The notes below the pieces were generated by a model that was not told where the DNA came from, did no database searches, and worked only from the letters and a program-made list of their open reading frames with translations. Below are positions 5,464-40,493 of a stretch of 64,000 nucleotides of DNA, in pieces. How positions within the stretch are numbered: the first letter of the stretch is position 1; each line of letters opens with the position of its first letter. This DNA is from a virus. The position numbers and the translations under genes are program-made. Location of the stretch: IMG/VR virus record IMGVR_UViG_3300025117_000042, positions 39,541 through 103,540 of that record; one strand, given 5' to 3'.

Positions 5464-5466
5464 CAA

Positions 5467-7233
5467 ATGAGTGTTTACAAGGGGATTTACTTTCGAGGTC
5501 GGGGCATCATCATTCCCGGTGCCTATGCTGATGTAGACGCAACAAGCATGGTGCCGAACAGATTGTCTCCTGCCAATGTCCTTGCAATGCTGGGGCAAGC
5601 TAAAGGTGGGGTTCCGAATCAAGCTGTGCGGGTTCTTAACCTGCGGGATGCTGTAAACATGCTGCGGAGTGGCGATCTTAAGACTGCGGCAGAACTTGCC
5701 TACGATCCAAGTGCTGACATGCCTGGAGCTGGGGAAGTTATCTTTATCAGGGTAGCTGGTACAGGTTGTGCTAGATCAACTTCTGACCTTTCGAGTCAGG
5801 TTACTCTTACAGCCGTTGACTATGGGGAACATACAAACTTTCTCCGTAGGAAAATTGAAGCTGGTTCTGTAGCTGGCCGGAAAATCACTATCAACCATCA
5901 GGCAGATGATATTACAGAAGTATATGATAACATCGGGCCTGTCTTTCAAATCCAGTACGTAGGGTCTGCTTCGGCTGCTCGTATGAGTTTCGATGCTAGT
6001 ACAAAGATTCTGCTTATCGAAATAAATACTGGTTCGTGGGTTCCGCTGGTTACTTATACTGTAACCAACATTGCTGTTGATACAATCTCTGAACTTGTGA
6101 CTATCCTTGACTCTCATCAGGATCTTACTTGTAATATACACAAGTATGGTTCTGGCAACATGAGTTCTTCTTTGCTGGATGCAATGACTCAGGTTGATAT
6201 TAAAACCGCTCTTACCACTGTATCTTCTGAAGTTGGTTCTCTTATCACTTGGGTTAACAATCGTTCTGCGCTGTGTACTGCGGCTGCTGGTGTGTCTGCC
6301 ACTGGTAACTTTACTAATAGCAACTGGACAAATTTCGTAAACGGTTCTGAAGGTTCCGCTCCTGATGTAGCTGCATGGTCGGCAGCTCTGGCTCTTCTTG
6401 AGTCTGAGACTGATGTTAAATACATCTATTGTGCTACTGACAATGAATCCATCCATACCGCAGCTATCGCACATTGCACCACTCAGTCAGATCCTAAAGT
6501 AGGCCGGGAACGTAGGCTTATCTTCGGTGGTGCTGCTTCTGAAACTGTCGATCAGGCTACTACAAGGGCTATCAATCAAGGTTCTCCAAGAGCCATGCTT
6601 GTATATCCTGGTATCAAGCGGGTTAACGCTCAGACTAACCTGTTGACCGTTATTCCTCCGTATCTCACAGCCGCAGCTGTCGCTGGAATGGCTGCTGGTG
6701 CTACGCCGGAAACTCCGCTTACCTACAAAACCATCAAAGCTCATGGGATGGAAAAATACCTGAAGGATGCTGAAGTTGAACAGCTCCTACAACAGGGTGT
6801 TACTCCTATTCGGTACGTAAAAGAAGATGCTATCTATCAGATCGTTCAGTCTATTACAACTTGGCAGAAAGATGCCAATGTAATCTATCGCAAATGGTCT
6901 GGTATGGGCATTCACGATTACCTCCGTCAGGAAGCTCGTAATACGGCTAAACCATTCATCGGAAGAGTAGGCGATATGTATGCTATGTTGTCTATTAAAA
7001 ACGCCGTAGCAGCAAAACTTGACCTTCTTACCCGTACTCCTCAGAATCCTAACGGTGTCCTTACGAAAGTATGGGACTATGCAAAAGAGCAGGTACTACC
7101 TGCTTGGGATAACCTGTTGGTTGAATGGGATGGTTATGACCATGTAAACGTTTCCTTCAGGGCACATCCTGTCGGGGAAATTGCTTACATCACGATCATG
7201 TGTACTCTTGAACCTGCAAAGATGACAGTATAA
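5467..7233 (+). CDS. Tail sheath protein
   Basis: 588 residues, within the size range of contractile-tail sheaths. The N-terminus carries the usual handle (MSVYKGIYFRGRGIIIPGAY). The C-terminal domain is the conserved core, with a VGDMYAMLSIKNAVAAKLDLL segment, a helix-rich WDYAKEQVLPAWDNLLVEWD stretch, and a final strand pattern ending IAYITIMCTLEP. Sheath subunits polymerise around the tail tube and contract to drive it through the envelope. The tube gene follows at once, the classic pair. The variable central region (about residues 100-330) is an outer-domain insertion. Confident assignment. Confidence 0.92.
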   Translation: MSVYKGIYFRGRGIIIPGAYADVDATSMVPNRLSPANVLAMLGQAKGGVPNQAVRVLNLRDAVNMLRSGDLKTAAELAYDPSADMPGAGEVIFIRVAGTGCARSTSDLSSQVTLTAVDYGEHTNFLRRKIEAGSVAGRKITINHQADDITEVYDNIGPVFQIQYVGSASAARMSFDASTKILLIEINTGSWVPLVTYTVTNIAVDTISELVTILDSHQDLTCNIHKYGSGNMSSSLLDAMTQVDIKTALTTVSSEVGSLITWVNNRSALCTAAAGVSATGNFTNSNWTNFVNGSEGSAPDVAAWSAALALLESETDVKYIYCATDNESIHTAAIAHCTTQSDPKVGRERRLIFGGAASETVDQATTRAINQGSPRAMLVYPGIKRVNAQTNLLTVIPPYLTAAAVAGMAAGATPETPLTYKTIKAHGMEKYLKDAEVEQLLQQGVTPIRYVKEDAIYQIVQSITTWQKDANVIYRKWSGMGIHDYLRQEARNTAKPFIGRVGDMYAMLSIKNAVAAKLDLLTRTPQNPNGVLTKVWDYAKEQVLPAWDNLLVEWDGYDHVNVSFRAHPVGEIAYITIMCTLEPAKMTV

Positions 7234-29426: not shown

Positions 29427-30451
29427 GTACTCTCCGGTTTGCATTGACAGAAGCTGGCGTAAAGACAAAGCCACTCCCAAAGAAGACCGAATTTGCCATT
29501 AAGTGCTTTAAGTGCAATGACACTGGTATGCACATGTATGTGAATGAAGGGGTTGTAAGGGAAGGAGTCAGAGGCTGGTGTTACTGTCATAGAAGAGGGT
29601 GTGTAGCTACAGTAAAGCAACTTGCTATACATTATCAACTATTATATGATTACGATAGCTATAGAGCTGGTGTTACCACTACAGAGGCAGTGCTTACAAA
29701 GCTAGCCAATTTGGGATTCGAACAGCCAGTAGGCAAGATCAGTATACAAGATAGTTGGTTCAATTTCGATCAGTTTGAGAGTCCTTTAACGTCTAAGTCA
29801 TTTTTCGCACAAAAGGCTAAGACCTATCTCAACAATAGACGAGGCTTTTCAGATCCTCTAATAGCTTTATATGACTTTCGCTTTGCTGATGCAGGGGATT
29901 ATGCCGGAAGGATCATCATCCCATTTACGGAACGTGGCGAATTAGTTTATTTTCAGGCTAGAAGTTATCTGTTAGCATCGACGTTAAAGGTTCTCAATCC
30001 TCCAGAAGGTGTGTTTATAGGGGGGAAGTCTGAATACCTGTACAATTTTGATAGAGCAAGGCTATTTCCAACTGTTGTAATAGCTGAAGGCTGGGCATCT
30101 GCTGTGTCTTGCGGTTTGAATGGGGTTGCGATCAATGGCAATGCCGCTTCTGACATACAGCTCGAAAAGCTATTAGAATATTGGGATAACTACGTTGTAG
30201 TTCTGGATAATGGAGTGGAAGATAAAACATTCGATTTGGCTGAAAGCCTGTTGCACAGGAAACCTAAATCCAATGTGAGTATAGTACTGCTTCCCGAAGG
30301 CGATCCAAATGACTACACATTCAAAGAGATGAAGACATTTATTAGCAATGCTAAGAGATATCATTCAGTCTCTGAGATAAAAGCCGAAGCTATCAAATTC
30401 CCTGCCAGAGGACATGATGATAAAAATAATCAAAGGGATAAACAGCAGTAA
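29423..30451 (+). CDS. DNA primase with zinc-binding and Toprim domains
   Basis: 342 residues. Cys28-x2-Cys31 with Cys53, Cys55 and Cys60 near the start form a zinc-binding primase module; residues about 214-300 form a Toprim fold (VVIAEGWASAVSCG, then VVLDNGVEDK). This is the T7 gp4-like primase layout without a fused helicase; the helicase is the separate upstream gene. It makes RNA primers for lagging-strand synthesis. The end overlaps the next gene by 38 nt, so the two are presumably coupled. Confidence 0.85.
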   Translation: MSTLRFALTEAGVKTKPLPKKTEFAIKCFKCNDTGMHMYVNEGVVREGVRGWCYCHRRGCVATVKQLAIHYQLLYDYDSYRAGVTTTEAVLTKLANLGFEQPVGKISIQDSWFNFDQFESPLTSKSFFAQKAKTYLNNRRGFSDPLIALYDFRFADAGDYAGRIIIPFTERGELVYFQARSYLLASTLKVLNPPEGVFIGGKSEYLYNFDRARLFPTVVIAEGWASAVSCGLNGVAINGNAASDIQLEKLLEYWDNYVVVLDNGVEDKTFDLAESLLHRKPKSNVSIVLLPEGDPNDYTFKEMKTFISNAKRYHSVSEIKAEAIKFPARGHDDKNNQRDKQQ

Positions 30452-31829
30452 AGTAGTAACAGATGACGCAAAAGTTTTAATAGAATTAGATGAATTGTTT
30501 GCTTTCAAAGTTCCAGGTTGTGAGTTTGTCGATGCCTACAAGAGGAAGCTATGGGATGGTAAGTCTCATATGTTCAGTAGGTTAACCGGCAAGTTCAACA
30601 CTGGTCTTCTCCCAAGAGTAGTTGATGAAATATACAAGCTTACATCAACTATGCCTACCATAGAAACAACCTACGATCTACTTATTTCAAAGAAACCGAT
30701 AATAGATAAACTGAATGGAATAGAGCTACGACAGTACCAGACTGAAGCAGCTGATGCATTCATGCGTCCTGGTCGAGGTATCGTCAAAGCAGCAACCAAC
30801 TCTGGAAAGACAGAGATAATGGCTGAACTGTTACGAAGGATCAATAGACCTTCTATAGTTCTATTACATAGACAGGAGATTATGTATCAAACAGCAGAAC
30901 GTCTGGAGGAGAGACTATCTGTTCCTGTTGGGATTATTGGTGATAATAATTCTAATATCAAAGATATAACAGTAGTAATGTTTCAGTCAATAACAGAGCG
31001 GAAAGCTGTAAAGAACACTTTTGGGCAAACAAAGAAATCCAAAGCATGGAGAATGAAAGATGAATATAAGCATCTTTGTGATCAGCCTGTACTGTTCTTT
31101 GATGAGTGTCATAATATATCTGATGACAGAGCTAAGATAGTGGCTAAAGAGAGTAAGGCTATATTTCGAGGTGCGTTTTCAGGTACACCTTTGCTGCATG
31201 ATGAAATAACCAATTTGACTCTTGAGGGTCTGTTTGGTGGTGTTGTTTATGAAATATCTAATAAAGAACTTATAGCTTTGGGTGTATCCTCAATCCCGGT
31301 CTGCCACATAATGAAGATCGACACAAAGGGTATTCTGTCTGCCGACTATGCGAAAGCCTACGATAAAGGGGTAGTGTATAGTAGTACCAGGAATGGGGCT
31401 ATAAGGGAGATAGCTGTCAACCATGCTAACGAGGGGAAGAGTGTTCTTATAATAGCAAGGGAGCATAATCATATTATGAACCTGATGGAGCTTATACCAG
31501 GGGCAGAGTATGTGCATGGGGCTATGCCGAGTAAAACCAGGAGAGCCAGATTATTGGCCTTCAAGCAGGGTAAGATTAAAACTCTCATATCATCCACCAT
31601 TCTTGATGAGGGTGTTGATATCTCTAATATAGAGGTGCTGATACTTGCAGCCGGGGGGAAATCCAGTATCAAGATCTTGCAGAGAATCGGTAGGGGGTTA
31701 CGTGCCAACGAGTCGATGCAGCTGGCTGTATATGATTTTATGGATATAGGGAATTGGTATCTTTTGGATCATTCGCAGCAGAGGATACAGATGTTGAAAT
31801 CGGAGGGGTTCAGGGTAAAATTGGGCTAA
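30414..31829 (+). CDS. DEAD/DEAH-type helicase, UvsW-like
   Basis: 471 residues. Q-motif-like RQYQTEAADAF, Walker A AATNSGKT at 126-133, DECH box (FFDECHN), SGTP motif III, and a C-terminal domain with TLISSTILDEGVDISN and RIGRGLR. An N-terminal 100-residue domain precedes the core, as in T4 UvsW. Such helicases remodel R-loops and recombination intermediates. The start overlaps the primase end; the true ATG may be 30414 or 30417. Well supported. Confidence 0.88.
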   Translation: MMIKIIKGINSSKVVTDDAKVLIELDELFAFKVPGCEFVDAYKRKLWDGKSHMFSRLTGKFNTGLLPRVVDEIYKLTSTMPTIETTYDLLISKKPIIDKLNGIELRQYQTEAADAFMRPGRGIVKAATNSGKTEIMAELLRRINRPSIVLLHRQEIMYQTAERLEERLSVPVGIIGDNNSNIKDITVVMFQSITERKAVKNTFGQTKKSKAWRMKDEYKHLCDQPVLFFDECHNISDDRAKIVAKESKAIFRGAFSGTPLLHDEITNLTLEGLFGGVVYEISNKELIALGVSSIPVCHIMKIDTKGILSADYAKAYDKGVVYSSTRNGAIREIAVNHANEGKSVLIIAREHNHIMNLMELIPGAEYVHGAMPSKTRRARLLAFKQGKIKTLISSTILDEGVDISNIEVLILAAGGKSSIKILQRIGRGLRANESMQLAVYDFMDIGNWYLLDHSQQRIQMLKSEGFRVKLG

Positions 31830-31848: not shown

Positions 31849-31910
31849 AAAAAATATATTATAAAAGTGCTTGCATTGTTGTGTAGTTTTGATATTATAT
31901 CAGTGTAGCA
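31849..31910 (+). promoter_or_regulatory. Promoter/operator cassette, copy A
   Basis: 62 nt nearly repeated at 32073-32135. AT-rich UP-like tract (31849-31866), -35 TTGCAT (31871-31876), 16-nt spacer, -10 TATTAT (31893-31898). The -10 lies inside a palindrome, TGATAT-T-ATATCA (31890-31902), so a repressor could compete with polymerase. Expected start is near 31905, giving a transcript that enters the tRNA-like element. The match between copies is direct; the function is inferred. Confidence 0.7.
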
Positions 31911-31929
31911 TGTTGATCTTTGAAATTAC

Positions 31930-32072
31930 GGGGCTTTCGTTCAACCGTGTTTAGGACACTCAGACCCGAACATCTTTTTAATTAGTACCTAAGCTTGAAC
32001 CTACCGGGGGTTCGCTAGGGGAAATGTAAAGAGGTGCTGAGAGATGTGGGTTCGATACCTACAAGCCTCCGC
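31930..32072 (+). ncRNA. tRNA-like RNA with enlarged anticodon arm (about 143 nt)
   Basis: Acceptor stem GGGGCTT (31930-31936) pairs with AAGCCTC (32063-32069; one G.U). U8 is present. D stem GTTC/GGAC with A14 and A21 follows, then anticodon stem CTCAG (31959-31963) with CTGAG (32037-32041), a 4-nt variable loop, and a canonical T arm GTGGG-TTCGATA-CCTAC (32046-32062). Between the anticodon strands are 73 nt instead of 7; the stem can extend as ACC/GGT, and an internal hairpin (CCTA...TAGG, 32000-32019) is possible. The D loop lacks GG and no U33 is evident, so decoding is doubtful. It could be an intron-bearing tRNA or a tRNA mimic. It lies between two copies of one promoter. Confidence 0.55.
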
Positions 32073-32135
32073 AAAAAATATATTATAAAATGTGCTTGCA
32101 ATGTTATGGAAGTTTGATATTATATCAGTGTAGCA
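32073..32135 (+). promoter_or_regulatory. Promoter/operator cassette, copy B
   Basis: Second copy of the 31849-31910 element: same AT tract, -35 TTGCAA (32096-32101), 16-nt spacer, -10 TATTAT (32118-32123) within the palindrome TGATAT-T-ATATCA (32115-32127). It begins exactly at the 3' edge of the tRNA-like element and should drive the DUF932 gene, whose ATG is 34 nt downstream. Differences between copies are confined to the spacer and one inserted T. Confidence 0.7.
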
Positions 32136-32168: not shown

Positions 32169-32999
32169 ATGTTTACATCTACTAAAGTTCTCACCCCTGA
32201 GCAGCTGCGCCGGTCTGTACCTTCAGCTTTTGCCGTTGAAGCTCATGAGTCCATGAGTGATCGTTATGGCTTCATCTCTACTGAGCAGGTTATCAATGCT
32301 CTCGTTAATGAAGGTTTCCTTCCAGTGTATGCACGTCAAACCAATGTACGAGATAAAGGTAAGCAGGACTACACAAAGCATCTGATACGGTTCCGGCATG
32401 TCGATGTTAAGCCTGTTGTCGGGGATGTGTTCCCTGAGATAGTGCTTGTCAACTCCCATGATGGCCTGAGCAAGTACAAGATGGATGCAGGGCTGCTCCG
32501 GTTGGCTTGCTACAACGGCATGGTTGTGGGGGAAGGCACCATCTCTCAGGTAGCTATCCGCCACAATAAAAACGTGGTCGATGGGGTACTGGAAGCAGCC
32601 TTTGAAATCACTGAGCAGGTTCCTTTGATAGCCGGGGCTGTAGAAGAGATGCGAAGGGTTATGCTGAACTATGAAGAGCGTCTGGTTTTGGCTAAGGCGG
32701 CTTTGGTTTTCAGGTACGAAAAAGAGCCGGAAGACCTGGAAGAGATACCAGTTAAACCAGGGCAGCTTCTTCAGGTACGTAGGTATCAGGATAAGGAAGT
32801 ACAAAATACACTGTGGGGTACTTATAATATTGTTCAGGAGAACTTGACGAAGGGTGGGGTTCATTACAACAGAGTGAATCCCGAAACTCACAGGGTACGG
32901 CATCAGACAACCAGGGAAATTAAGTCGATCAGCGAAGATATCAAGCTGAATAAAGCTCTCTGGACATTGGCAGAGGAGATGAAGAACATTAAAGGGTAA
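32169..32999 (+). CDS. DUF932 (phage/plasmid-like) protein
   Basis: 276 residues with the family's conserved opening (SDRYGFISTEQVINALVNEG, then GFLPVYARQTNVRD), the HLIRFRH strand, and VLVNSHDGLSKYKMDAGLLR followed by LACYNGMV. The DUF932 family (also modelled as TIGR03299) is common on phages and plasmids; its role is unknown. It stands directly behind a strong promoter, implying high early expression. RBS AAAGGAG. After the stop, a GTCTG/CAGAC hairpin (about 33011-33035) might terminate weakly. Confidence 0.8.
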   Translation: MFTSTKVLTPEQLRRSVPSAFAVEAHESMSDRYGFISTEQVINALVNEGFLPVYARQTNVRDKGKQDYTKHLIRFRHVDVKPVVGDVFPEIVLVNSHDGLSKYKMDAGLLRLACYNGMVVGEGTISQVAIRHNKNVVDGVLEAAFEITEQVPLIAGAVEEMRRVMLNYEERLVLAKAALVFRYEKEPEDLEEIPVKPGQLLQVRRYQDKEVQNTLWGTYNIVQENLTKGGVHYNRVNPETHRVRHQTTREIKSISEDIKLNKALWTLAEEMKNIKG

Positions 33000-33070: not shown

Positions 33071-33310
33071 ATGGAAGCGAATAATAGACAGATTCGTGGA
33101 GATAAGTATATTCTATTAGAGAAACCTTACAACAAGGCGGATAATAATTTGACTGTAGTGCTTGCGACTTGGAAGGATGAGTTATGTACATGGGTATACA
33201 ATAAAATAGATGGTTCCTTCTGCTGGGGGCATTACTTCAACAACAAGGAGCGTGAAGAGAACGTAAAAGCAGCCCTGGACGACTTTAACAGTAGGGGGTT
33301 AGTACAATGA
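33071..33310 (+). CDS. Small hypothetical protein upstream of sigma-like gene
   Basis: 79 residues, with GGAAAGGGGG just upstream, overlapping the next gene by ATGA. Mostly beta then helical (YILLEKPYNKADNNLTVVLA, CTWVYNKIDGSFCWGHYF) with an N-terminal basic patch and two Cys. No family is known to me. Coupling to the sigma-like gene suggests a partner or regulator, without proof. Confidence 0.55.
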   Translation: MEANNRQIRGDKYILLEKPYNKADNNLTVVLATWKDELCTWVYNKIDGSFCWGHYFNNKEREENVKAALDDFNSRGLVQ

Positions 33311-33993
33311 CTTGGGATGATGTGTACGCAAAAGCTGAAAAGCTTATAAGTATCAAGGCTTACCAGTGGCAGAGGGAAGAGCATTTTGCGCTGAACAGAG
33401 AAGATCTAATAGCTGAAGGTTGGCTAGCCTACTCTGCTCTGCTTGCCAGTACCAGAAGTAGGAACCTGGAGCCTCTGGAGTTTTGGAAGATATTTACATC
33501 CAGTTTGCATGGTCATATGTGGAACTTGTATCGGGATCATAAGACCAGAGCTAAACGAGCAGAAGGTGAACGGGCTTATGCTCCAGGTGGTTCAGGCCAT
33601 GATGTAGATCTATCTGATATCTTTGAGTTCATCGGTGCTGAGGGCTTTGAGTTATGTCTAATAGATGAGTACTGCAACGAGGTGCGATCTATTATTAAAG
33701 ACAACGCTAATCTGTTGGAGCTTTTTGAAGTTCTAATAAATCCACCTGCTGAGGTAGAGGATATGGCACTAGCTACACATAAGCGTAGATGCAGACTGCA
33801 TGCACAAGGTCAACATGTACGAGGCTTGAATCTGGTTGCACCTGATGATAACCACTTTGCGAAGTTCCTGGGATGGAGCAGCAGCAAGCTGTACAAATAT
33901 CGGAAGCAGCTGGAGCATATTGTGGAGAGGGTAATCCAGTTGCATTCCAACGGGATGAGCAGCTATAAGCTGGGGCATTTTACGTTAGGCTGA
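33307..33993 (+). CDS. Sigma-factor-like transcription regulator
   Basis: 228 residues. Residues 30-85 resemble sigma region 2 (NREDLIAEGWLAYSALL, then SLHGHMWNLYRDHKTRAKR), and the C-terminal part has a helix-turn-helix-like HFAKFLGWSSSKLYKYRKQL that could act as region 4. Large phages often carry such diverged sigma factors for middle or late promoters. If right, it redirects host RNA polymerase to phage promoters. The call is from motif shape, so moderate confidence. Confidence 0.5.
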   Translation: MTWDDVYAKAEKLISIKAYQWQREEHFALNREDLIAEGWLAYSALLASTRSRNLEPLEFWKIFTSSLHGHMWNLYRDHKTRAKRAEGERAYAPGGSGHDVDLSDIFEFIGAEGFELCLIDEYCNEVRSIIKDNANLLELFEVLINPPAEVEDMALATHKRRCRLHAQGQHVRGLNLVAPDDNHFAKFLGWSSSKLYKYRKQLEHIVERVIQLHSNGMSSYKLGHFTLG

Positions 33994-35387: not shown

Positions 35388-36566
35388 ATGCAATGTGAAT
35401 TCTCAGAAAGCTGTAGTCTGCATGGTTCCTGTAACAGCCCTAAGATCAGAATTGAAGGAAAGGTAAACCCTGATGTGCTGATCATTAGCGACTGCCCACA
35501 TGCTGAGGATGATAATTGTAACAGCGTCCTGGTAGGTGAAGGTGGGGAGCTGTTACGTGAAGCTTTGAGGGGCAATGGTTTTAATCTTAGCAAAGTAGCT
35601 TATACGTTTGTGGTGAAATGTAGACCTACGCAACAGAAGTGGGGTAAGATCGTAAATCGTGATCCTTCAGACAAGGAAGTAAAAACGTGTAAGCCTTTTG
35701 TATTAGCAGAGATAGAGGTATTCAAGCCAAAGATCATCCTCCTACTAGGCTCTGTAGCGTTCAAGGCTGTATTAGATGGTAAGGGGATCATGGCTAACCG
35801 GGGAAGGCTGTTTGAATACAACGGTATCCCGGTCATTCCGACCCTTCACCCTGATATGGTTATTAGAGATGATACACATCTAAATCCTTTCGTTAAAGAT
35901 ATCGAAACCCTGTGGAAGTTCTTCACCGGCACTATGCCAGTAGAGGAAAAGCCTACTGATTATATTCTCTGTGACACCAAACAAAAACTAGATGATCTAA
36001 TAGACTATGCTTCAGATAAAGATGAGTCAGCAGTTGACTTAGAAACATCTACTCTCAACATGTTTAAGGATGATTCACAGATCGTATGCTGTAGTTTTTC
36101 CTTCTTCGAATATGAAGCTCACATAATACCTTTGTATAATAAACAACAAATTTTTACCGGCAAGATGTTGAATTACGCAAAAGCGGTGTTAAAGATATTA
36201 TGTGAGTCTGAAATTAGGAAGATCCTTCAAAATGGTAAGTTCGATATCAAGTACCTGGAAGTGACGGAAGGTATTCTATTAAACAACATGGTTTCAGATA
36301 TCATGATGAAGTCCTACCTGTTCAATGAAGAGGCTAAAACACATGCTCTGGATTATCTGGTGTGGCAGTATGTGCCGGAAATGGGGAGCTATTGGGATGG
36401 TCTGGAGCAGTACAAGGCAGAGCACAAGGATTGTGATCCTGAGCAAGGCGGGACGTACAGGAATATTCCTTGGAAAGTAATGATACCTTATGTTGGAGCA
36501 GATACTGATGCTACTATTAGAATAGATCATCGGCTGAATGATTTACTGAAAGGAAAACAACCATGA
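35388..36566 (+). CDS. UDG-like domain fused to DNA polymerase 3'-5' exonuclease (split polymerase, part 1)
   Basis: 392 residues. Residues 1-180 match family-4/5-type uracil-DNA glycosylase: Cys3/9/15, LVGEGGELLREAL, VKCRP (Cys78), TCKPF (Cys101), LLLGSVAFKAVL and the PTLHPDM motif. The family's GEAPG-like catalytic motif is replaced by SDCPHAEDD, so activity is uncertain. Residues 190-392 are a DnaQ/PolA exonuclease: Asp217-x-Glu219 (AVDLETS), NGKFDIKYL and YVGADTDATIRI. It stops exactly where the PolA thumb would begin; the polymerase domain is the separate gene at 37541. Resembles SPO1-type UDG-exo-pol fusion, here broken. Confidence 0.85.
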   Translation: MQCEFSESCSLHGSCNSPKIRIEGKVNPDVLIISDCPHAEDDNCNSVLVGEGGELLREALRGNGFNLSKVAYTFVVKCRPTQQKWGKIVNRDPSDKEVKTCKPFVLAEIEVFKPKIILLLGSVAFKAVLDGKGIMANRGRLFEYNGIPVIPTLHPDMVIRDDTHLNPFVKDIETLWKFFTGTMPVEEKPTDYILCDTKQKLDDLIDYASDKDESAVDLETSTLNMFKDDSQIVCCSFSFFEYEAHIIPLYNKQQIFTGKMLNYAKAVLKILCESEIRKILQNGKFDIKYLEVTEGILLNNMVSDIMMKSYLFNEEAKTHALDYLVWQYVPEMGSYWDGLEQYKAEHKDCDPEQGGTYRNIPWKVMIPYVGADTDATIRIDHRLNDLLKGKQP

Positions 36567-37001: not shown

Positions 37002-37541
37002 ATGATTGTGCTTGTCGATATGGATGGAATTGTAGCTAAGTTAGAAGAACCTTGGCTAGCTTTGTATAACAAAGATTATGATGACTGTCTTGTGTCAGAG
37101 GATATGACTGATTTCGATTGGTCGAAGATAGTAAAGCCTGAATGTGGCACTAAGATCTTCAGTTATTTAGCTACAGAAGGCTTATTTCTTAACTGTGAGC
37201 CTTACGAAAACTCAGTTGATGCTTTATTACAACTATATTTAGACAAGCACGAACTGTATTTTGTAACAAAAGCTCATAATCTGGCAAAGTTTGCCGTTAT
37301 AGAGAAGATGGATTGGGTTGACAAGCACTTTCCGTTCATAGGTCGAGATAAAGTTATTTGTACAGGTTATAAGCACTTGATTCGTGGAGATGTTTTAATA
37401 GATGACTACCACAAAAACTTCCGTGGTTTTCAGGGTAAGAAGCTCCTGTTTGATCGTCCCTGGAATAGGAGTGCTTGCGAGATTGATCTGGTGAGAGTTT
37501 ACACCTGGGATCATGTACTTTATGAAATAGAGAATATGTAA
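37002..37541 (+). CDS. 5'(3')-deoxyribonucleotidase (NT5C/HAD family)
   Basis: 179 residues from ATG 37002, preferred over an earlier frame opening at 36939 because AGAGAGGAG lies nine bases upstream. HAD motif I DMDGIVA (DxDG), a FDWSKIV segment, FVTKAH (motif II) and LIDDYHKNF (motif IV) match the 5'-nucleotidase NT5C family. It removes phosphate from dNMPs and would shape deoxynucleotide pools. The end overlaps the polymerase start (TAATG). Confidence 0.8.
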   Translation: MIVLVDMDGIVAKLEEPWLALYNKDYDDCLVSEDMTDFDWSKIVKPECGTKIFSYLATEGLFLNCEPYENSVDALLQLYLDKHELYFVTKAHNLAKFAVIEKMDWVDKHFPFIGRDKVICTGYKHLIRGDVLIDDYHKNFRGFQGKKLLFDRPWNRSACEIDLVRVYTWDHVLYEIENM

Positions 37542-38902
37542 TGCTTGACGGTGTGTTTCCTTCACAAAATAGTTTCTCAGAGGTAAACGATCATCTGTTT
37601 ATCCCTGCACTGTACGCTCTTAAAGAGGTAGAGAAGCAGGGATTTACTATTGATATGAATAAGTTTCTCTGTTTAGAGGAAGGTTACACAGTAAAGCTGA
37701 ATCAACTGGAGGATAGAGTCAGGAGCTATCCTGAAGTATTGAGTGTAGAAAAGAAGATAGACAAGAAGTTTAACCTTAATTCAGGGGATCAGATACATGA
37801 GCTGTTCTTTGTAGAGATGGGTCTATCTCCTGAAGGTATAGAACCGACAGATAGCGGTAAACGGTTAAGCACTGGTAAGAAGACCATAGCAAAGCTGAAA
37901 GATAAGCATGAGATAGTAGAGCTTATCAATCAGCATAAGAAGTACGCCACACTGTATAAGATGTTCGTTAAGCCATTGAGGAAGCACATTTGTCTTGATG
38001 GCAGGGTACATTGTGTCTATCTCCCTCTTACAAAGACAGGGAGGCTTATCTGTTTCGATCCAAACCTTCAGCAGATACCAAAGAACATAAAAGCTGCTGA
38101 CATAGGTTTCGACTTCGATCCTGCTCTGAACATAAAAACTATGTATATTCCATTCGATAAAGATTATTTATTGATGGAAGCTGACTATAGCCAGATGGAG
38201 CTTAGAATCCTTGCAGCCTATTGCCAGGATGAGGTGATGAAGGGGATCTTACTGCGGGGAGAGGATATTCACTTAGCTACAGGTCAGGCTATGGCCGATA
38301 TCGTGGAGCCTGGGGTTATTGTAGACAAGGACAGCAAATGGAGGAAAGCAGCAAAGACAATCAACTTTGGTATTATATATGGCGAGGGTGACAAGGCTCT
38401 AGCCGAGGCTCTGCATGTAACAGAGAAGGAAGCAAAACAGTTTAAGCGTAACTACTTCGATAGCATGCCTGGGGTTGAAACCTTCCTTGATGATGTATAC
38501 AATTTCGTATACGAAAATAGGTATGTTACTACAATGTTTGGGAATTACCGGAGGTTGTTGGGGGTAACATCTCCTCAGAAGTTTGTCAGGTTTGAGGCAC
38601 TGCGGCAAGCTTTGAACATGCCGATCCAAGGTACAGCAGGGCAGTACACTATCTGTGCTATTATAAACATCATTGATATTATACGTAAGTACAAGATGAA
38701 GTCTCGTATAATAGCAACAATTCACGACTCCATTATGTTTTGTGTACATAAAGATGAGATAAAACAAATGGCAGAGATAGCTCAGACAGTTATGGCGAAT
38801 CCTACTAACCCATTGATTTATTGGGATCTAGGTGTACCACTGAAAGCAGATTTGAAGTTGAGTGAAAATAGTTGGGCGGATCTGAAAGATTTTACACCGT
38901 AA
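37541..38902 (+). CDS. DNA polymerase I-type polymerase domain (split polymerase, part 2)
   Basis: 453 residues: thumb (about 20-150, EKQGFTIDMNKF), then palm/fingers. Motif A LMEADYSQMELRILAAY, motif B KAAKTINFGIIYGEG, motif C TIHDSIMFCVH; all catalytic residues are present. No exonuclease domain; this is the gene at 35388, so together they equal a normal PolA with a UDG extension. The start overlaps the nucleotidase stop and has only a weak RBS, implying coupled translation. The two parts must presumably associate. Confidence 0.92.
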   Translation: MLDGVFPSQNSFSEVNDHLFIPALYALKEVEKQGFTIDMNKFLCLEEGYTVKLNQLEDRVRSYPEVLSVEKKIDKKFNLNSGDQIHELFFVEMGLSPEGIEPTDSGKRLSTGKKTIAKLKDKHEIVELINQHKKYATLYKMFVKPLRKHICLDGRVHCVYLPLTKTGRLICFDPNLQQIPKNIKAADIGFDFDPALNIKTMYIPFDKDYLLMEADYSQMELRILAAYCQDEVMKGILLRGEDIHLATGQAMADIVEPGVIVDKDSKWRKAAKTINFGIIYGEGDKALAEALHVTEKEAKQFKRNYFDSMPGVETFLDDVYNFVYENRYVTTMFGNYRRLLGVTSPQKFVRFEALRQALNMPIQGTAGQYTICAIINIIDIIRKYKMKSRIIATIHDSIMFCVHKDEIKQMAEIAQTVMANPTNPLIYWDLGVPLKADLKLSENSWADLKDFTP

Positions 38903-39467: not shown

Positions 39468-40493
39468 ATGGCATTCTCAGCGGAAGATGCAAAGAAGAAA
39501 CTGGCAGAGCTTAAAGCAAAAAACAAGGGAGGTGATTATTTACAGTGGAAAGATGGTGCTAACAATCTTAGGGTACTGTGTGACGAGGATCTTGATTGGT
39601 ACGCTGAGGTAGACTTGCATTATTTTAAAGTAGGCAAGGATACAATGGCTGTAGCTTGTAACAAGTCGATAGATGGCAGTGACTGTTACTTCTGTAATAT
39701 GGTAGAAGCTCTGTATGCTACTAAAGATAAAAATGATAAGGAGCTGGCAGGTAGGCTAAAGGCAAAGACACGCTTTTATGCTAATGTAATAGATCGTGAT
39801 GATGACAATAAGATCAAAGTAGCTCAGTTTGGTTCTCAGGTGTTGGAAGGTATGCTAAAGTATTTTGCTCATATCGACTACCAAGATGATTTGTTCACAA
39901 AACCTGATGGGTTTAATTATGATTTTATTGTCACAAAAGCCGGAGAAGGCAAGGATAATACCAAGTATTCTGTTGAGGCTCGTAAGAATCCATCGAAGTT
40001 GGGTGTAAAGAGAGAAGATATCAAGCTTGCCGATCTTAACGCTCTGGCAACAACAGAAGTGTTTACTGCCGATGAGCAGGAGAAGTTGCTGGATGGCACA
40101 AGCAAGGAAGATATTATAAAAGCTAGGAAAGGGGGAGGCGATACAAAGAAGGAGACTAAGAAAGAAACCAAGAAAGAAGAACCTGCGCGTAAAGCGAAAC
40201 CGGAAGTCAAGAAGATGAGTCCAGAAGACAAGTATGCTGAGTATATTAGCAAACTTCCGATGGAGATTCCTAAAGTCAAGAAGCTGTACAACCTGTGGTT
40301 GGAAGATGATGGCACAGAAGAAGGTATCCTTGCCCTGGTCGAGAAGTATGGCGAGGATGATGATCCACCTGTTCCGCCTGAAGAGGAAGAAACTACACCT
40401 GAAACTGAGTCCGGTGATGGAGAGGAATCAGATCTGGATGCAGAGATTAAGGCAGCAGCCGCACGTTTTGCTAAAGGTAAAGGTAAAAAATAA
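39468..40493 (+). CDS. Single-stranded DNA-binding protein, gp32-like
   Basis: 341 residues. An N-terminal Lys-rich helix (EDAKKKLAELKAKNKGGDYL) leads into an OB-like core with a metal site (CNKSIDGSDCYFC, about 63-75) as in T4 gp32-type proteins. Residues 225-250 are a KKETKKE repeat; after it comes an acidic region (EEEETTPETES) and finally a basic FAKGKGKK end. The acidic segment should contact replisome partners. It protects ssDNA beside the mediator gene. Good match in layout. Confidence 0.75.
   Translation: MAFSAEDAKKKLAELKAKNKGGDYLQWKDGANNLRVLCDEDLDWYAEVDLHYFKVGKDTMAVACNKSIDGSDCYFCNMVEALYATKDKNDKELAGRLKAKTRFYANVIDRDDDNKIKVAQFGSQVLEGMLKYFAHIDYQDDLFTKPDGFNYDFIVTKAGEGKDNTKYSVEARKNPSKLGVKREDIKLADLNALATTEVFTADEQEKLLDGTSKEDIIKARKGGGDTKKETKKETKKEEPARKAKPEVKKMSPEDKYAEYISKLPMEIPKVKKLYNLWLEDDGTEEGILALVEKYGEDDDPPVPPEEEETTPETESGDGEESDLDAEIKAAAARFAKGKGKK

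Follow-up and report, generated by a model that had tools for sequence, protein, structure and literature searches.

A tRNA-shaped RNA with a hairpin inserted at its anticodon loop in two related phages

The Locus and Its tRNA-Shaped RNA

The window analyzed here is a 64,000-nt stretch of the IMG/VR virus record IMGVR_UViG_3300025117_000042 (record positions 39,541 to 103,540), a 103,540-bp record (referred to as G000) whose sheath, baseplate, and terminase genes mark it as a tailed phage with a contractile tail. At window positions 31930-32070, between a gene for a UvsW-like helicase (30414-31829) and a gene for a DUF932 protein (32169-32999), both of which are kept in a related phage, lies a tRNA-shaped RNA that we delimited from G1 to C73 by its stems, a structural descriptor, and covariation. 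These genes, the RNA, and the elements described below with window coordinates for the RNA and its promoters are all on the + strand.

The initial annotation of this DNA, made from the letters alone, had recognized a tRNA shape with acceptor, D, anticodon, and T arms and a 4-nt variable loop, and all of these are present. In the acceptor stem, GGGGCTT (31930-31936) pairs with AAGCCTC (32063-32069), which is followed by C73 at 32070, the would-be mature 3' end, and then by GCA, not CCA. The D arm, GTTC-AACCGTGTTTA-GGAC (31939-31957), precedes an anticodon stem formed by CTCAG (31959-31963) and CTGAG (32037-32041); the variable loop AGAT and the T arm GTGGG-TTCGATA-CCTAC (32046-32062) complete the cloverleaf. 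It had also been seen correctly that the D loop lacks GG and that position 33 is not U; it is C.

The 73 nt that the initial annotation had counted inside the anticodon stem can now be resolved into a 7-nt bulge, a 10-bp helix, and an inner hairpin. The bulge, ACCCGAA (31964-31970), sits where an anticodon loop would be. The inserted helix pairs 31971-31980 with 32027-32036, the latter strand lying flush on the anticodon stem according to both the minimum free energy (MFE) fold and covariation, and it encloses a region (31981-32026) folded by MFE into a hairpin with a GAACC/GGTTC stem and the apical loop TACCGGG. In both phages the 5' side of the anticodon stem leads into 6-7 unpaired nt and then into a helix of 9-10 bp (10 here, 9 in the relative), the 3' strand of which is flush with the anticodon stem. 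Because of this combination of a 5' bulge and a flush 3' strand, we describe the RNA as a tRNA into whose anticodon loop a hairpin has been inserted at the 3' edge. In each phage, the bulge is complementary to the apical loop: CCCG (31965-31968) could pair with CGGG (32005-32008) in the window, and GUAGC with GCUAC in the relative, with shuffle fractions of ~0.10 and ~0.05 respectively.

We searched with a descriptor consisting of the T loop TTCRANNC, 5/5 T-stem, 7/7 acceptor, 4/4 D, and 5/5 anticodon-stem pairs at tRNA spacings, which matched a single site in the window (both strands) and one site in each phage genome. This all-stem descriptor had no match in 12 Mb of first-order Markov sequence, so the cloverleaf is not a chance arrangement; a relaxed descriptor gave six matches in 12 Mb of simulated sequence. 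The MFE folds of the two RNAs, computed separately, have an identical layout, and the folding energy of the relative's RNA is well below that of its shuffles (z -3.6).

The window RNA is not reported by ARAGORN in its default mode, by ARAGORN intron mode at the default threshold, or by Rfam at the gathering score. ARAGORN intron mode at the default threshold does report the relative's copy, as tRNA-Ala(AGC), drawing its cloverleaf in full with an insertion of 69 nt; the window copy, which it reads as tRNA-Arg(CCG) below the threshold, is given a 66-nt intron in the corresponding position. With E values up to 10, Rfam gives no tRNA match for the relative and just one for the window, a partial match to tRNA-Sec scoring 13 bits, and the relaxed mitochondrial and low-threshold modes of ARAGORN return numerous meaningless matches. 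As ARAGORN finds no tRNA in G000 or in the related genome, so that neither has another tRNA, the RNA is not the remnant of a tRNA cluster.

Conservation of the RNA in a Related Phage

An IMG/VR scan using the neighboring helicase identified the related phage (IMGVR_UViG_3300025073_000032, 102,805 bp, referred to as G001) and a 6.5-kb fragment that does not differ from G001 over the RNA stretch. The helicases of G000 and G001 are 59% identical and the terminases 89%; 28 of the 30 window proteins tested have a counterpart in G001 (45-89% identical), and the genes compared are collinear. The relative's RNA is at positions 5466-5608 of locus L002, likewise between the helicase and DUF932 genes. 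It has the acceptor stem GGAGCAT..ATGCTCC, the D arm GTTT-AACAGGTTA-AGAC with G18 and G19 in the loop AACAGGTTA, the anticodon stem TTTCGG/CCGAAA, and the T arm AAGAG-TTCGATA-CTCTT.

The initial annotation had named compensatory changes in the acceptor, T, and anticodon stems as the test of its structure, and the test came out in its favor. When every stem is aligned to its own counterpart, 30 pairs can be compared (acceptor 7, D 4, anticodon 5, inserted helix 9, T 5), all of which are standard in both sequences, including the 21 of the cloverleaf; 13 differ on both sides, three on one side, and none is broken. The compensated pairs are distributed over the acceptor stem (two), D arm (one), anticodon stem (three when registered by stem), inserted helix (four), and T arm (three), while the T loop is identical. 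An untuned MAFFT alignment still gives 11 double changes with 98.3% of cells paired, compared with at most three double changes and 60% paired when the partners are slid by 1-3 columns as a control.

Over the body of the RNA the two phages are 62% identical; for the bulge the figure is 2/7, and for the inner insert 27%; thus the shape is kept while the decoding loop is not. A decoding tRNA would be expected to conserve its anticodon and to have U33 in an anticodon loop of 7 nt, instead of which we found C33 in the window, a loop identical at 2/7 positions, and an insert of 66-69 nt. A tRNA body kept without a kept decoding loop, as in a non-decoding mimic, is what these two sequences display. 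Comparison of the sequences thus gives good support to a structure that is real and under selection. Because the related phage keeps the shape despite many letter changes, the RNA is real and probably non-decoding.

Further copies were sought by IMG/VR protein scans with the helicase, DUF932 protein, terminase, and helicase C-terminus as queries, singly and as alignments, and the only close relatives retrieved were G001 and the 6.5-kb fragment. BLAST searches against phages, both near (15 kb of the window) and distant (RNA region), gave no homologue, only short matches to tRNA T arms or A/T-rich sequence. A first DNA-pattern scan recovered G001, the 6.5-kb fragment, and chance matches resembling coding DNA; the matches listed for a second, looser pattern were mostly ordinary or tandem tRNAs and chance matches, plus an interrupted tRNA in an unrelated phage that is discussed below. 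A covariance model of the RNA, the body of which scores ordinary phage tRNAs at up to 45 bits, had no match in nine further records, a search made without a positive control. One bacterial genome scan found two distant DUF932 genes with no tRNA-shaped RNA found nearby; a DUF932 relative (43%) at positions 6001-6792 of L023, a contig of 247 kb assigned to a Burkholderia MAG (metagenome-assembled genome), has no adjoining tRNA-shaped RNA.

Promoters and Neighboring Genes

The RNA lies between two promoter-like sites. P1 (31849-31898) comprises an A/T-rich flank, the -35 box TTGCAT (31871-31876), a 16-nt spacer, and the -10 box TATTAT (31893-31898), and P2 (32074-32123), which presumably drives DUF932, is a near-copy of it with the -35 box TTGCAA (32096-32101), a 16-nt spacer, and the -10 box TATTAT (32118-32123). 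The initial annotation had called the two promoters identical; the pair does flank the RNA, but is only near-identical over about 60 bp, differing at the -35 box. From the positions of P1 and the acceptor stem, 31905-31929 would be the 5' leader, the removal of which by RNase P is expected.

A scan of both whole genomes for a TTGCWN box and a TATWWT box separated by 15-18 nt found only five sites in G000 and six in G001, among them in both the pair flanking the RNA on its coding strand. P1 and P2 are the two + strand sites of G000; of the remaining G000 sites, one that overlaps P2 on the opposite strand has a fairly A/T-rich flank. In L002, matching sigma-70-type promoter-like sites precede and follow the relative's RNA. 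The A/T fraction upstream of the flanking pair is 0.95 and 0.95 in G000, and 0.75 and 0.90 in G001.

The predicted structure of the DUF932 protein (pLDDT 45) is too poor to use. The second gene past DUF932 (33307-33993), with a 45% identical homologue at positions 6840-7529 of L002, has no Pfam or PHROG match; the best structural matches of its model are mostly sigma factors, each of them weak, and by its sequence features the product looks like a phage sigma factor. If the phage does carry such a factor, host-type promoters at the RNA would fit early transcription. Further downstream, a uracil-DNA glycosylase domain and a 3'-5' exonuclease domain are fused in one gene (35388-36566), and a separate gene (37541-38902) has a family A polymerase domain and belongs to the same PHROG polymerase family as the fused gene.

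Possible Function as a Non-Decoding tRNA Mimic

With moderate confidence, we read 31930-32070 as a dedicated gene for a tRNA-mimic RNA, probably an early one, that does not decode and would act in trans on a host tRNA-binding factor. The RNA would descend from a tRNA and retain the coaxial acceptor/T arm, the D arm, and the elbow contacts. A hairpin of 66-69 nt stacked on the anticodon stem would have replaced the 3' side of the anticodon loop, and decoding would have been lost because of this replacement; the 7-nt bulge left behind may be tied back onto the apical loop of the hairpin. The RNA would have a sigma-70-type promoter of its own, be transcribed from it, probably at an early stage of infection, and be trimmed in the manner of a tRNA, with RNase P cutting at G1. 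In trans, it would most likely occupy a host tRNA-binding factor that reads the tRNA body and not the anticodon, for which a tRNA-cutting defense nuclease or a translation or processing factor is plausible. The initial annotation had listed a decoy or regulator among its suggestions; mimicry of a tRNA is indeed the best remaining reading, with the target a matter of conjecture.

Several results weigh against this reading. The structure is represented by two distinct sequences (G000 and G001), and the folding energy of the window RNA is unexceptional against its shuffles (z about -1.3). The window D loop lacks GG, and the pairing predicted between bulge and apical loop, at about 0.05-0.1 per sequence, is weak and suggestive only. 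No terminator-like site was found between the RNA and DUF932 in either phage, so the RNA could belong to a longer transcript.

This last point bears on what we consider the most probable of the alternatives, though still an unlikely one: that the tRNA shape serves processing or control in the 5' part of a P1 transcript running into DUF932, where RNase P and RNase Z, for example, would cut it. Shapes of this kind commonly act as signals for processing, and the gap to DUF932 free of terminator-like sites would suit such a transcript. However, the P2-like site after the RNA would yield a DUF932 mRNA without the RNA in both phages, and a plain processing signal needs no conserved inserted hairpin. 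That the RNA is instead a functional tRNA with an intron, the 66-69 nt hairpin being spliced out and the halves joined, was suggested by the initial annotation and is in our estimate unlikely. ARAGORN intron mode does model both copies in this way, excision of the flush hairpin would give a 7-nt loop, and G000 encodes an RNA ligase. Against it, no part of the RNA body is less conserved than the anticodon loop, and the anticodons implied differ (CCG with C33 in one phage, AGC without the Ala G3-U70 pair in the other). The insert is too short for a group I core, with no Rfam intron match, and in place of a bulge-helix-bulge, which was not found, there is a single 5' bulge of 6-7 nt with a flush 3' side. 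The ligase pointed out by the initial annotation is real (PF09414, 55461-56144) but has no match in the otherwise collinear G001, so it is probably outside this system, and RtcB is in neither phage. Splicing is therefore unlikely, given the short insert, the lack of a bulge-helix-bulge and of a conserved anticodon, and a relative without the ligase.

Decay of a tRNA gene that suffered an insertion in its anticodon loop would account for the D loop without GG, the C33, and the absence of a CCA end in the window, as well as for the unconserved sequence of the insert. We regard it as very unlikely in view of the 13 compensated and no broken pairs out of 30, an insertion of the same place and length in both phages, and the kept flanking promoters. 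A reduced tmRNA, or a tRNA-like domain (TLD) that binds SmpB and blocks trans-translation in the style of phage DS6A, would share with tmRNA a tRNA-like domain, a long helix replacing the anticodon arm, and a possible pseudoknot, and a phage RNA made of the TLD alone, as well as inhibition by a molecule of this type, have been published (PMC4131195). We nevertheless consider this improbable: neither Rfam, even at E 10, nor ARAGORN gave a tmRNA match, a 4-bp D stem is present, the G3-U70 pair is in neither copy (G3-C70 in the window, A3-U70 in the relative), and there is no conserved tag frame of at least 20 residues, shorter frames having been judged by eye only. An SmpB gene was not found in either phage. 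The initial annotation had suggested a tmRNA-like regulator; a tmRNA proper does not fit these results. It had also suggested a Y-RNA-like one; a scaffold of that kind for a Ro protein is the least credible and in our view highly improbable. A TROVE/Ro protein was not found in G000 or G001, and no Rfam Y RNA match was obtained up to E 10. Y RNAs have their ends in the stem that binds Ro, whereas the ends here are at an acceptor stem. What speaks for a kinship is that bacterial Y RNAs mimic tRNAs (PMC7790460, citing Chen et al., 2014).

Returning to the non-decoding mimic, we tentatively propose that it may represent a new family of tRNA mimics in phages. In these RNAs, the former anticodon loop would now be a bulge pseudoknotted to an inserted hairpin, and they would be expressed early from their own promoter and neutralize a host factor acting on tRNA (a tRNA-cutting defense, SmpB/tmRNA, or a processing enzyme). 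Such RNAs would be missed by annotation because tRNA finders by default ignore long anticodon-loop insertions in phages, which would point to an overlooked class of phage RNA genes. It has long been asked why phages carry tRNAs, and recent work has linked the matter to tRNA-cutting defenses (PMC10264068). A tRNA body under strong selection, with its decoding loop removed, in a phage without a decoding tRNA would separate mimicry from decoding in one small RNA, which could serve as a clean reagent for identifying the host factor addressed.

Comparison with Known tRNA-Like RNAs

With phage-encoded tRNAs, for which a case has been made that they counter tRNA-cutting defenses (PMC10264068), the RNA shares the cloverleaf body, the D-arm block TTCGTTYAAC, and the T loop TTCGATA. 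Unlike them, it has a 7-nt bulge and a 66-69 nt hairpin for an anticodon loop and no conserved anticodon or CCA, and it is the sole tRNA-like gene of its phage. The interrupted tRNA retrieved by the looser pattern (L090, IMGVR_UViG_3300037512_001166, reverse complement of 1903-2044) resembles it in its phage tRNA body, which belongs to the same D-arm class, and in the ~70 nt inserted into its anticodon loop. However, it lies within an ordinary tRNA cluster, its insertion follows position 33 and is not at 37/38, the insert is itself tRNA-like, and the gene is scored by Rfam tRNA. ARAGORN calls this gene Val(CAC), Rfam tRNA gives it 45 bits, and its 3' half matches phage tRNA-Asp genes; the insert folds somewhat like a small tRNA, with acceptor-, D-, and T-like arms, and an ORF directly upstream resembles an HNH endonuclease by eye.

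Mycobacteriophage DS6A carries an RNA consisting of the tmRNA tRNA-like domain alone, and a similar molecule is reported to inhibit tmRNA, perhaps by titrating SmpB (PMC4131195). Like tmRNA (ssrA) and, as far as its description allows comparison, the DS6A RNA, the RNA reported here has a tRNA-like domain, a helix replacing the anticodon arm, and a possible pseudoknot, and is phage-encoded; unlike them, it has a D stem and lacks G3-U70, a tag frame, a pseudoknot ring, and an Rfam match. Bacterial Y RNAs such as YrlA offer a parallel in non-decoding tRNA mimicry, although the phages here have no Ro protein and the RNA ends at an acceptor stem. The Ro-associated YrlA has been proposed to be a competitive inhibitor of a tRNA-cutting (anticodon) nuclease (PMC7790460). 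We take the precedents of YrlA, DS6A, and phage tRNAs as leads and not as evidence of membership. The RNA is of a kind absent from current RNA catalogues, and among tRNA mimics its layout is an unusual one.
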